Source of the DNA: Frankiaceae bacterium
GTDB lineage: Bacteria > Actinomycetota > Actinomycetes > Mycobacteriales > SCTD01
Assembly: GCA_947479995.1 (NCBI GenBank)
Contig: CANKBT010000003.1
Span: 1-33,150 of the forward strand
Length of the DNA: 33,150 nucleotides
Reading direction: 5' to 3'
Part shown: positions 3,928 to 7,275 of the stretch, in pieces
Numbering within the stretch: position 1 is the first letter of the stretch
Layout: every line of letters starts with the position of its first letter
Position numbers and translations under genes: made by a program
The notes under the pieces: model-generated
Database searches by the model: none
What the model was told of the DNA's origin: nothing
Seen by the model: only the letters and a program-made list of their open reading frames with translations

Positions 3928-4799
3928 CGACACCCGCCCAGTGGCTCGAGGGCGCCCGCCCGCGCACCCTGCCGGCCGCCGTCGCGCCGGTGCTCGTCGG
4001 CAGCGGTGCGGCCGCGGCCGAGGACGCCTTCGACCCGTTCCGCGCGCTGCTCGCCCTCGTGGTGGCGCTGGCCCTGCAGGTCGGCGTCAACTACGCCAAC
4101 GACTACAGCGACGGCATCCGCGGCACCGACGCCGACCGGGTGGGGCCGCTGCGCCTCGTCGGCTCGGGCGTCGCCGCACCCGCCCGCGTCAAGCAGGCCG
4201 CGCTGCTGTGCTTCGCCGTGGCGGCGGTCGCGGGCCTGGTGCTCGCGGTGCTCAGCGCGCCGTGGCTCGTGCTCGTCGGCGCCGCGGCCATCGCTGCCGC
4301 CTGGGGCTACACCGGCGGCGCGAAGCCGTACGGCTACAGCGGCCTCGGCGAGGTGGCCGTCTTCGTCTTCTTCGGCCTGGTGGCCGTGGTCGGCACGACG
4401 TACGTGCAGGCCGAGGAGCTCACGCTCGCCGCGGCCCTCGGCGGCGCGGGCTGCGGCGCGCTGGCCTGCGCGATCCTCGTGGCCAACAACCTGCGCGACA
4501 TCCCGACCGACGCGGTCACGGGCAAGCGCACCCTCGCGGTGCGGCTCGGCGACGCGCGCACCCGCACGCTCTACCTGCTGCTCGTGCTGCTCGCGTTCCT
4601 CGTGGCGGTCGCCGCCGTCGCCGTGACGCCGTGGGCGCTGCTCGCGCTGCTCGCCGCGCCGCTCGCGGTGCCGCCCCTGCGGGTGCTGCGCTCGGGCGCG
4701 ACGGGGCGCGACCTGGTCGCGGTGCTGCGCGCGACCGGCGTGCTGCAGCTGGCGTACGCCGCCCTGCTGGCGGCCGGCTTCGCGCAGGTCGACCTCTAG
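3924..4799 (+). CDS. menA: MenA, 1,4-dihydroxy-2-naphthoate polyprenyltransferase (UbiA family)
   Basis: GTG at 3924 overlaps the menE stop (GTGA). 291 aa, hydrophobic; VNYANDYSDGIRGTDADRVGPLRLV and NNLRDIPTDAVTGKRTLAVRLG match UbiA Asp-rich motifs. Confidence 0.94.
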   Translation: MTTPAQWLEGARPRTLPAAVAPVLVGSGAAAAEDAFDPFRALLALVVALALQVGVNYANDYSDGIRGTDADRVGPLRLVGSGVAAPARVKQAALLCFAVAAVAGLVLAVLSAPWLVLVGAAAIAAAWGYTGGAKPYGYSGLGEVAVFVFFGLVAVVGTTYVQAEELTLAAALGGAGCGALACAILVANNLRDIPTDAVTGKRTLAVRLGDARTRTLYLLLVLLAFLVAVAAVAVTPWALLALLAAPLAVPPLRVLRSGATGRDLVAVLRATGVLQLAYAALLAAGFAQVDL

Positions 4800-5665
4800 C
4801 GGTCGAGCGCCACCAGCCGGAAGACCGGCGCGCGCTTGGGCTCGAGCGCGCCGCAGGTGAGCAGCTGCGCGCCGTCCTCGCCGGCGCGGTCGTAGCGCAC
4901 GACGACCCGGGCGCCGGTGAGCCGCACCTCCCAGACGTCCGGCTCGAGCGTGGTCTGCGCGAGCAGCTCGCCGCCGCCGGCGAACGACTGCGCGGCCTGC
5001 ACGGGCGTCGGCAGGCTGCTGCGCCCGCGCCAGTGCGCCAGGTCGAGCTCGCCCCGCCCCAGGGCCGCGATGGCGGCCACCGCGTCGTCGGGCTCGACGT
5101 GGCCGAAGTAGTGCCCCTCGGGCAGCACGAGCAGGTTGGCGGCGAACCGCTCGCCGCCGATGTGGCTGCACTCCCAGGCGGCGTCGCCGTACGCCGCGCT
5201 CACCGCCAGGGCGACGGGGCGGCCGCGCGTCGCGCAGCAGCGGTCGTGGCTGCCGTGCGTGCAGACCAGGTGCAGGCGCTCGCCGTGCACGGCCCAGCCG
5301 TCCGGGACCCCCGGGCCGTACGGCGGGACGAGGTCGAGCAGCGCGGCGTCGTCGTCGACGTGGCGGGCGAGCACGCGCTCGCGGCCGGGCCTGCTGTCGA
5401 CGGCGAAGACCCAGCGGCCGTCGCTGCCGCCGCCCGACGAGCGGCGCACGAGCAGCAGCCGGGCGCCGGCGGCCTGCGCGGCGCGCGCGACGGCGGTCGC
5501 GGCGGCGGCGGGCATGCGGCCGGACGGCACGGACTCCGGGCCCCAGGCCGCGGCGTGCTCGACGAGCAGCCAGCGCTCGACCCGGCTGGCGGTCGCCCGC
5601 AGGGCCACCCCGCGCTCGCGCGCGGTGGTGGCGCACCACGGGTCGACCGGGTCGGTGTCAGGCAC
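4796..5665 (-). CDS. Sucrase/ferredoxin-like family protein (thioredoxin-like [2Fe-2S] candidate)
   Basis: 289-aa ORF with CTHGSHDRCCATRGRPVA and WECSHIGGERFAANLLVLPEGHYFGHV, characteristic of the Suc_Fer-like family. GTG start overlaps the upstream cupin stop by 8 nt. Confidence 0.85.
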   Translation of the reverse strand: MPDTDPVDPWCATTARERGVALRATASRVERWLLVEHAAAWGPESVPSGRMPAAAATAVARAAQAAGARLLLVRRSSGGGSDGRWVFAVDSRPGRERVLARHVDDDAALLDLVPPYGPGVPDGWAVHGERLHLVCTHGSHDRCCATRGRPVALAVSAAYGDAAWECSHIGGERFAANLLVLPEGHYFGHVEPDDAVAAIAALGRGELDLAHWRGRSSLPTPVQAAQSFAGGGELLAQTTLEPDVWEVRLTGARVVVRYDRAGEDGAQLLTCGALEPKRAPVFRLVALDR

Positions 5666-6809
5666 CGGCGACGAGCACGCCCTCGCGCAGCAGCCGGCGG
5701 GCGACGACCAGCGCGTCGCCCTCGTCGAGCCCGCCCGCGGCGAGGTCGGCCACCGTGCAGGGGCCGGCCATCGCCACGTCGAGCGCGGCGGCGCAGGACG
5801 CCGGCAGCGCGACGTCCTTGCCGGGCAGGTGCAGCACCTCGCCCTCGCGGCGCACCGGCAGCCCGCGGCGGGGCCGCAGCGGCGTCGCGGGCGCCAGGTC
5901 GCGCAGCGCCGCGGCCGACGCCAGCACGCCGACCGGCTCGGGCGGCACGGCCTTGGCCAGCCGGGCCTGCAGCAGCGCCTCGACCTGCGCGGGCTCCAGC
6001 GCGGCGAGCCACGCGGCCGCCTGCTGCAGCACCTCGGCGACGCCCTGCTCCGGCGAGGGCTGCACCGGCAGCGCGTCGCGGAAGCGCACGTCGCCGGCCG
6101 CGAGCGTCACGGCGTCGGTGAGCACGTCGTACCAGGTCGTGCTGAGGATCCCGATCGTCAGGTGGACCGAGTGGACGTCGGTCGTCAGCGCCGCGTGCAC
6201 GTAGCCGCGGGGCAGGTAGAGGCAGTCGCCCGGCTCGAGCTCGACGTCGAGCAGCGGCTCGGCGCCCTCGGGCACGAGGTGCTCGCCGGCCTGCGGCTGC
6301 GACGGCAGCGGCAGGCGCAGCACCGGCTCGTGCACCAGCCAGCGCTTGCGCCCGCTCACCTGCAGCACGAGCACGTCGTGCGTGTCGTGGTGGAAGTCGA
6401 AGCCCTGCGCGTCGCCGCCGGGGGTGACGTAGGCGTTGCACTGCGTCGGGTGCCCGAGCTCCTCGGCCAGCGCGCGGCAGAACCGCCCGACGGGCGGGTG
6501 CATGCGGTGCAGCGACTGCAGCACGAGGGTGGCGCCCGCGGCGTGCTGCGCCGTCAGGGCGTCGGCGTCGACGAGGTCGCCGATCCGGCGGTTGCCGGCG
6601 GTGACGGTGCGGACGGGCGCGGGCAGGCCGCCGCCCTCCTGCACCGTGCGGAAGAACGGGGTGCGCAGCGCGCGCTCGGCGACCAGCTCGTCGACGTCGG
6701 CGTCGGTCAGCAGGTCGGCGAAGCCGCCGGCGGGCAGCTCCTTGGCGCGCGACAGCAGCGGCGTGCGCGACCAGTGCTCGGCGGCGAACTGCGCCGGGTC
6801 GACCGACAC
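5658..6809 (-). CDS. JmjC/cupin_4-type Fe(II)/2-oxoglutarate-dependent oxygenase (ribosomal-oxygenase-like fold)
   Basis: 383 aa; GFDFHHDTHDVLVLQVSGRKRWLVHEP (HxD metal motif) and LEPGDCLYLPRGYVHAALTTDVHSVHLTIGI (distal His), the layout seen in YcfD/NO66/MINA53-type JmjC proteins. GTG start at 6809. Confidence 0.85.
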   Translation of the reverse strand: MSVDPAQFAAEHWSRTPLLSRAKELPAGGFADLLTDADVDELVAERALRTPFFRTVQEGGGLPAPVRTVTAGNRRIGDLVDADALTAQHAAGATLVLQSLHRMHPPVGRFCRALAEELGHPTQCNAYVTPGGDAQGFDFHHDTHDVLVLQVSGRKRWLVHEPVLRLPLPSQPQAGEHLVPEGAEPLLDVELEPGDCLYLPRGYVHAALTTDVHSVHLTIGILSTTWYDVLTDAVTLAAGDVRFRDALPVQPSPEQGVAEVLQQAAAWLAALEPAQVEALLQARLAKAVPPEPVGVLASAAALRDLAPATPLRPRRGLPVRREGEVLHLPGKDVALPASCAAALDVAMAGPCTVADLAAGGLDEGDALVVARRLLREGVLVAGA

Positions 6810-6821
6810 GCAGCGCGCGAG

Positions 6822-6850
6822 CGCGCCCCCCGGCGGAGCCGGGGGGCGCG
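6822..6850 (-). promoter_or_regulatory. Perfect 13-bp stem, 3-nt loop hairpin between peptide and oxygenase genes
   Basis: cgcgccccccggc (6822-6834), gga, gccggggggcgcg (6838-6850): arms are exact reverse complements. No downstream U-tract on the minus strand. Confidence 0.85.
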
Positions 6851-6859
6851 TCTGCTCGC

Positions 6860-7084
6860 TCAGGGGTTGGCCGGGTCCGAGCCGGCCGGGTCGGAGCCGG
6901 CGGGGTCGACGGCCACCTCGTCGCTGTCGCCCTGGTCGGCGTCGCCGCCGGCCGGGTCGGTGCCGGCCGGGTCGCTGCCCGCGGGGTCGACCTGGGTGGT
7001 GTCGGTGTCGCCCTGGTCGGCGTCGCCGCCGGGCCCGGTCGCCGTGGGGCTGGTGGTGATGTCCTCGTCGCGCAGGCTCGTCAC
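6860..7084 (-). CDS. Small Asp-rich tandem-repeat peptide (candidate precursor/substrate)
   Basis: GTG at 7084 preceded by GAGGAG-N5 (strong SD). 74 aa: MTSLRDEDITTSPTATGPGGDADQGDTDTTQVDPAGSDPAGTDPAGGDADQGDSDEVAVDPAGSDPAGSDPANP. Lies within the longer 6860..7333 ORF. Two 27-aa repeats; 51 bp upstream of the cupin gene on the same strand. Confidence 0.72.
   Translation of the reverse strand: MTSLRDEDITTSPTATGPGGDADQGDTDTTQVDPAGSDPAGTDPAGGDADQGDSDEVAVDPAGSDPAGSDPANP
6869..7030 (-). repeat. Two tandem 81-bp (27-codon) repeats inside the small peptide gene
   Basis: Copies at 6950-7030 and 6869-6949; by-eye alignment about 80% nt identity with most differences in one ~10-bp block (TTQ vs EVA). 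Confidence 0.9.
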
Positions 7085-7150
7085 GCTGTCTCCTCGCTGG
7101 GGGGGCTGTCGGACCCCAGGCCCTTCCCCGTGATCGCCGCGCGACACCGC

Positions 7151-7216
7151 GCGCGAGGCGGACGCGAGACGGACGCGAGGCGGACGCGAGACGGACGCGA
7201 GACGGACGCGCAGTGG
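7151..7216. repeat. 11-bp tandem repeat array, consensus acgcgagRcgg, six units
   Basis: gcgcgaggcgg / acgcgagacgg / acgcgaggcgg / acgcgagacgg / acgcgagacgg / acgcgcagtgg, in the divergent intergenic region between the peptide gene and the SBP gene. Confidence 0.9.
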
Positions 7217-7246: not shown

Positions 7247-7275
7247 GTGACCAGCGGTGCCGTGAGCCCTAGTGT
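7247..7275 (+). promoter_or_regulatory. Candidate promoter of the oligopeptide transporter operon
   Basis: GTGACC (7247-7252), 17-nt spacer, TAGTGT (7270-7275), upstream of the SBP start at 7332. Weak motif match. Confidence 0.35.

Follow-up and report, generated by a model that had tools for sequence, protein, structure and literature searches.

The cassette and its peptide-oxygenase pair

We analysed a window of 33,150 nucleotides (nt) from the Frankiaceae bacterium assembly GCA_947479995.1 (contig CANKBT010000003.1, positions 1 to 33,150), in which three co-oriented minus-strand genes encode an aspartate-rich repeat peptide, an oxygenase of the JmjC_2 family and a protein of the Suc_Fer family. 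We propose, with a probability of roughly two in three, that this cassette resembles the systems producing ribosomally synthesized and post-translationally modified peptides (RiPPs), and that the oxygenase docks the leader of the peptide and oxidises Asp residues of its core, probably to beta-hydroxy-Asp. A check of the open reading frames (ORFs) placed the three genes where an earlier reading made from the DNA letters (the sequence-only reading) had put them: the peptide of 74 amino acids (aa) at 6860..7084, the 383-aa oxygenase at 5658..6809 and the 289-aa Suc_Fer protein at 4796..5665, with an 8-nt overlap between the start of the last and the stop of the oxygenase. The host genome carries a single copy of each gene.

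The peptide ORF begins with GTG, 5 nt from the Shine-Dalgarno sequence GAGGAG (7090..7095, minus strand), and its DNA forms a true tandem repeat with a period of 81 and a score of 232, in agreement with the ribosome-binding site and repeats reported before. This candidate precursor has no match in Pfam, NCBIfam or PADLOC. It comprises an acidic leader with the motif LRDEDITT (7052..7075, minus strand) and an Asp-rich core of DADQGD and VDPAGSDPAG units (6863..7024, minus strand), which contains 14 Asp and no Cys, His, Lys or Arg. The leader motif is kept throughout the host family, where the leader codons differ 20, 20 and 74 times at positions 1, 2 and 3; because the variation is mainly at third, synonymous positions, the leader region behaves as coding DNA. 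Across the ORFs the leader follows the consensus L-x-D-[DE]-[DE]-[IMV]-x-T and precedes a variable Asp core, with variants such as LNDDDIQT, LDDDDMTT and LSDEDITT in other families and LADDEIRT, VEDEDIVT and LSEDDIET in other classes. As in RiPP precursors, a leader distinct from the core carries a conserved candidate recognition motif, and a single clade has lost it.

The cores themselves are diverse. Most other families carry units of the form GPADGGA.GTPGQHDGGADGGA (e.g. GPADGGA..HDGGADGG), and further types are built of DGTDGDATD or DADSTDAD. Counting a residue as present when it occurs in at least two copies per core, we found Asp in all 85 cores (mean content 23%), His in 24, Asn in 10, Arg in 3, Lys in 1 and Cys in none; Gly and Ala likewise occur in nearly all of them. 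Asp is the sole reactive side chain common to all 85 cores. One upstream ORF (locus L172) departs from the rest: its divergent core repeats ADGTDQGV.GGTYGPRDA units, in which Tyr and Arg recur. A search of the host genome for extra peptide copies scored only the copy in the window, the other matches having E>0.1 or lying on the opposite strand at the same place. GGADGGAD stretches distant from the oxygenase in 14 other genomes were considered as extra peptides and dismissed as chance, except for one at a contig end in genome G088, which fits as the missing peptide of that genome's truncated locus.

The oxygenase matches PF08007 (JmjC_2; E=1.5e-25), and its nearest solved relatives are the ribosomal oxygenases (ROX) NO66, MINA53 and YcfD (phmmer to NO66, E=5e-23). 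Its AlphaFold2 (AF2) model has a predicted local distance difference test score (pLDDT) of 90, and the best Foldseek match is again NO66 (E=1.4e-23). The HxD...H triad is formed by H140, D142 and H205, so the motif and JmjC identity first read from the sequence hold. H140, H205, Y127, K155 and N125 are found in 122 of 122 homologs and D142 in 121; Y127 and K155 align with Y328 and K355 of NO66, positions that we take to bind 2-oxoglutarate (2OG). Since the catalytic residues are invariant, D142 in all but one homolog, the protein would be expected to be an active Fe(II)/2OG enzyme. It combines the JmjC fold, the triad and the Tyr/Lys pair with a C-terminal winged helix, as ROX-type enzymes do. 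In one homolog (L040) Val replaces the iron-binding Asp of HxD beside an intact peptide, which may reflect either a mutation or an assembly error.

To compare gene neighbourhoods, we gathered oxygenase homologs from a genome collection and from the host's order, class and phylum, and searched up to 700 nt upstream of the oxygenase for ORFs of 35-260 aa with at least 12% Asp and at least 75% small or polar residues. Among close homologs with at least 400 nt of upstream DNA, such an ORF was present at 68 of 70 loci, against 4 of 1,371 control windows taken from the same loci, a contrast that is descriptive because the loci are related by descent. Both misses still have a peptide, one of 226 aa (L058) and one in an ORF overlapping the oxygenase (L127), and one positive locus (L137) has an acidic non-repetitive ORF and counts loosely. 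The pairing is not mere lack of divergence, because oxygenase identity falls to about 40% while the type of peptide repeat changes completely, and it extends to other classes of Actinomycetota. Clustering of all neighbouring ORFs recovered the peptide, the oxygenase and the Suc_Fer protein as the only widely conserved context. Of 297 genomes sampled from the whole class, 95 have an oxygenase homolog (E<=1e-20). The data support an evolutionarily fixed pair of peptide and oxygenase, with the precursor kept beside its candidate modifying enzyme across species as in RiPP systems. The sequence-only reading had made its proposal dependent on homologous cassettes retaining a short repetitive ORF upstream of the oxygenase, and such an ORF was found nearly everywhere, the two misses included.

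The winged helix and leader loss

The C-terminal winged helix of the oxygenase (residues 308-383; 5661..5888, minus strand) is the proposed site of leader docking. Folded alone, these 76 residues gave an AF2 model with a pLDDT of 96, in which strands are followed by three helices. A Foldseek search against the PDB returned the winged helices of ROX enzymes and then almost exclusively RiPP recognition elements (RREs): those of ThcOx, MccB, TbiB1, TruD, the McbBCD complex (McbB), TigE, PbtF, TbtB and MibB. A 2025 survey of RREs independently describes PF08007 proteins with a fused RRE-like fold judged legitimate, and it reports that bacterial homologs occur in RiPP-like contexts (PMC12710340).

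A clade of 13 loci within the repeat group lacks the acidic leader (e.g. MSEQNLEGPADGG, MSELNPEGPADGG), and it is exactly here that the winged helix has eroded and become shorter. Its mean agreement with the consensus is 0.47 in the clade and 0.73 in the rest, whereas that of the JmjC domain is 0.87 and 0.83. Leader loss was also tested against decay locus by locus, with an imperfect regular expression for the leader; p was 3.6e-5 for the winged helix but 0.85 for the JmjC domain. The former value overstates independence, because the loci represent essentially a single event in evolution, with a weak second one besides. Decay of the winged helix with loss of the leader, sparing the JmjC domain, is what leader docking predicts. 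Together with the predicted structure, this lends fair support to the view that the peptide is a substrate that would be docked by the winged helix.

Related enzymes, the Suc_Fer protein and the genomic setting

The association between JmjC_2 enzymes and small peptides is not limited to repeats, because it is also seen in a sister clade, on Streptomyces plasmids and at a YcaO locus. The sister clade of 25 loci is well supported in a tree of the enzymes that we used for topology only, the automatic precursor labels being too strict for several loci. Its precursor family f31, MDPIEVEVEDLAEVTSRDITAGGDSDGTDSSSDFI with close variants, is highly conserved and classic-looking, and lies upstream of the JmjC_2 gene at L145, L146, L218-L220, L222-L225, L227, L228 and L233; other short precursors of the clade end in SDGSDG, DNDGND or GGGTGRSDGND. 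Locus L080 (4073-13011) encodes a YcaO-TfuA protein, a protein with JmjC_2 and 2OG-FeII_Oxy_3 domains, a second JmjC_2 protein and an 84-aa precursor-like peptide ending in ISASTGCISNPSGPSC; judged by its genes, it appears to be a YcaO RiPP cluster with a distant pair of JmjC_2 paralogs. The plasmids searched yielded only distant paralogs, two of them with named Streptomyces precursors. On plasmid pSCL4 of S. clavuligerus (L237:5772-7167), WP_009999493, with IADNDPSDPPI/IADPDPFDPVI repeats, adjoins the cupin protein WP_009999494, a distant example from a culturable species, and on a plasmid of S. avidinii (L238:4797-6146) the 45-aa WP_331732877, ending in GDGGGTGRSDGND, lies directly before a cupin gene. 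Both short ORFs are annotated only as hypothetical protein.

The Suc_Fer protein matches PF06999 (E=1.2e-16) and has no relative by sequence among solved structures. Its gene directly follows the oxygenase at 52 of 67 testable loci; in parts of the host family the two share a contig but stand 7-9 kb apart. The motifs CX8C and HX3H are the ligand motif of the Apd1/Aim32 [2Fe-2S] ferredoxins (PMC8482512). The cassette protein resembles these thioredoxin-like ferredoxins in its Suc_Fer family and CX8C motif, but the full ligand motif is absent: HX3H has become HX3D in nearly all members of the group and HX3E in the window (E172), so that cluster ligation, if any, must differ. The Asp or Glu in place of the second His points to an unusual set of [2Fe-2S] ligands or to loss of the cluster. 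A genome search found no PF06999 protein in the sampled genomes of two genera (g21 and g39) and in one further genome (G084), all of which have the peptide and the oxygenase. The pairing does not require the Suc_Fer protein, which is best called an accessory redox-type partner. With the second His replaced, the role of electron donor suggested by the sequence-only reading is still a guess.

The surroundings are those of a high-GC actinobacterial contig, with 69-82% GC per kilobase. Menaquinone-type genes surround the cassette, and a divergent oligopeptide ABC transporter starts at 7272. Between the peptide start and the divergent gene for the solute-binding protein, an 11-bp unit, CGCGAGACGGA, is repeated in tandem five times (positions 7152-7210), forming a possible regulatory site. 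A role in anti-phage defence was rejected as PADLOC gave no match, and a search of viral contigs found no relative encoded on any of them that would mark the genes as phage cargo.

A candidate peptide-modification system

These observations support a RiPP-like system, given the leader and core of the peptide, the RRE-like domain of the oxygenase and the paralogs, which occur beside other short precursors and, at one locus, within a YcaO cluster. The mechanism that we propose starts from a short ribosomal peptide whose leader is acidic and whose repeat core is rich in Asp; comparative genomics places its gene beside that of a ROX-type JmjC oxygenase throughout the clade. The RRE-like winged helix would dock this peptide through its leader, as structure prediction and co-loss suggest. 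The JmjC centre, with Fe(II), 2OG and O2, would then move along the repeats and oxidise the side chains of Asp, beta-hydroxy-Asp being the most likely product. As a redox or iron partner, the Suc_Fer protein might keep the oxygenase active, or it might serve a later step. The product may stay inside the cell, a guess prompted by the lack of a linked transporter or protease, and its carboxylates and hydroxyls could bind a metal ion there, which is likewise a guess. Oxidation of Asp, most simply to beta-hydroxy-Asp, has modest support; the support is indirect, because it comes from Asp being the only reactive residue shared by all cores. The sequence-only reading, which had the oxygenase hydroxylating DPAG[ST] or DADQGD repeats in a RiPP-like manner, is partly supported as a whole: the fixed pair, its RiPP-like character and the constant presence of Asp favour it, but DPAG[ST] is special to the host family.

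Several points weigh against this proposal. The case for it is drawn from genes and predicted structures, and the ORF criterion was fixed after the peptides had been seen. We identified no cleavage site in the host peptide, and the conserved neighbours in about 5 kb include no dedicated protease or exporter. RiPP clusters usually, though not obligatorily, include one or the other. The richness in Asp could also suit an unmodified acidic peptide. The structural matches of the winged helix are individually weak (E from 0.03 to about 1), and its comparison with PqqD was negative both in hhalign and in Pfam, ruling out direct homology to PqqD by sequence; for these reasons the RRE likeness is claimed from the collective specificity of the matches. 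The domain may simply have been inherited from a ROX ancestor, and its decay with leader loss amounts to about one clade-level event and a weak second one (L136, L139 and L141).

Ribosomal oxygenases such as NO66, MINA53 and YcfD hydroxylate His or Arg of ribosomal proteins, and the cassette enzyme shares their JmjC fold, HxD...H triad and C-terminal winged helix. It might be an ordinary member of this group, nearest to NO66 and YcfD in fold and sequence, that acts on a ribosomal protein, while the Asp-rich ORF is unrelated or encodes a regulatory acidic peptide (a leader peptide or a buffer) sharing the operon. We consider this improbable. In the cassette clade a small peptide adjoins the oxygenase at 68-70 of 70 loci, and the same holds in other classes; the sister clade has a distinct family of short precursors, and one paralog sits in a YcaO cluster. 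A ribosomal substrate, moreover, would need no variable peptide next door. Still harder to sustain is the view that the peptide stays unmodified, as an Asp-rich repeat protein with a metal-binding or structural role, and that the oxygenase senses or serves it in some other way, for instance in iron- or O2-dependent control. The acidic DxD spacing is like that of cation-binding loops and fits it, as does the missing protease or exporter, but the short leader-plus-core layout, the RRE-like docking domain with its decay alongside the leader, and the strict retention of the JmjC catalytic residues speak against it.

A more serious rival, though one we give only a minor share of the probability, accepts the peptide as substrate and places the reaction elsewhere: on His in GxHDGG repeats, on Ala, Gly or Pro carbons, or as further oxidation or cleavage at Asp. 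ROX enzymes do hydroxylate His and Arg, HDGGADG is common in cores outside the host family, and Gly and Ala are nearly universal. The host core, however, lacks His, Arg and Lys, His recurs in just 24 of the 85 cores, and Asp beta-hydroxylation is a known RiPP modification, introduced for example by the MNIO enzyme PesHI (PMC13060819).

By analogy, each putative chemical step has a separate precedent: a JmjC-related cupin acting on a RiPP, a 2OG enzyme acting on repeats and beta-hydroxylation of Asp in RiPPs. In biphenomycin-type clusters the ribosomal precursor is hydroxylated by PbsQ (PbsQ/BpmG), a cupin related to JmjC enzymes, but PbsQ acts on ornithine late in a pathway with MNIO, radical SAM (rSAM) and arginase enzymes, whereas the JmjC enzyme is the sole conserved oxygenase of the cassette and faces Asp-repeat cores (PMC12257519). 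In the corallotide system, repeated motifs of the long precursor CorA are hydroxylated by the Fe/2OG enzyme CorC (PF13640), which requires prior graspetide linkage by an ATP-grasp enzyme; none was found at the cassette (PMC13097080). PesHI of nitrilobacillin also beta-hydroxylates Asp in a ribosomal peptide, but it modifies a single Asp without repeats and belongs to a different enzyme family from the JmjC oxygenase (PMC13060819). The PF08007-RRE fusions resemble the cassette enzyme in joining JmjC_2 to an RRE-like winged helix, and their bacterial homologs are said to occur in RiPP-like surroundings; those described in section 6 of the survey are fish and algal proteins, and that section mentions neither a precursor family or repeat peptide nor a Suc_Fer partner or a distribution in Actinomycetota (PMC12710340). 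A search over openly licensed papers found no description of the cassette, an absence that carries little weight.

Taken further, the cassette would define a new class of actinomycetotal RiPPs, in which RRE-bearing, ROX-derived JmjC oxygenases polyhydroxylate Asp repeats to give a beta-hydroxy-Asp-rich, probably metal-binding peptide, and in which the winged helix of ROX enzymes, eukaryotic and bacterial alike, and the RiPP RRE are one substrate-docking module; on this wider claim we are evenly divided. If the proposal is true, a very common and nameless gene pair of Actinomycetota would be a peptide-modification system whose product is chemically simple and easy to test, and peptide docking would become a function for the winged helix of ribosomal oxygenases. 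Such precursors are easily overlooked, as the hypothetical label of the short ORFs beside the cupin genes of S. clavuligerus and S. avidinii illustrates. Asp-rich repeat peptides would then join RiPP genome mining, and one would have to ask what leads so many Actinomycetota to produce them.

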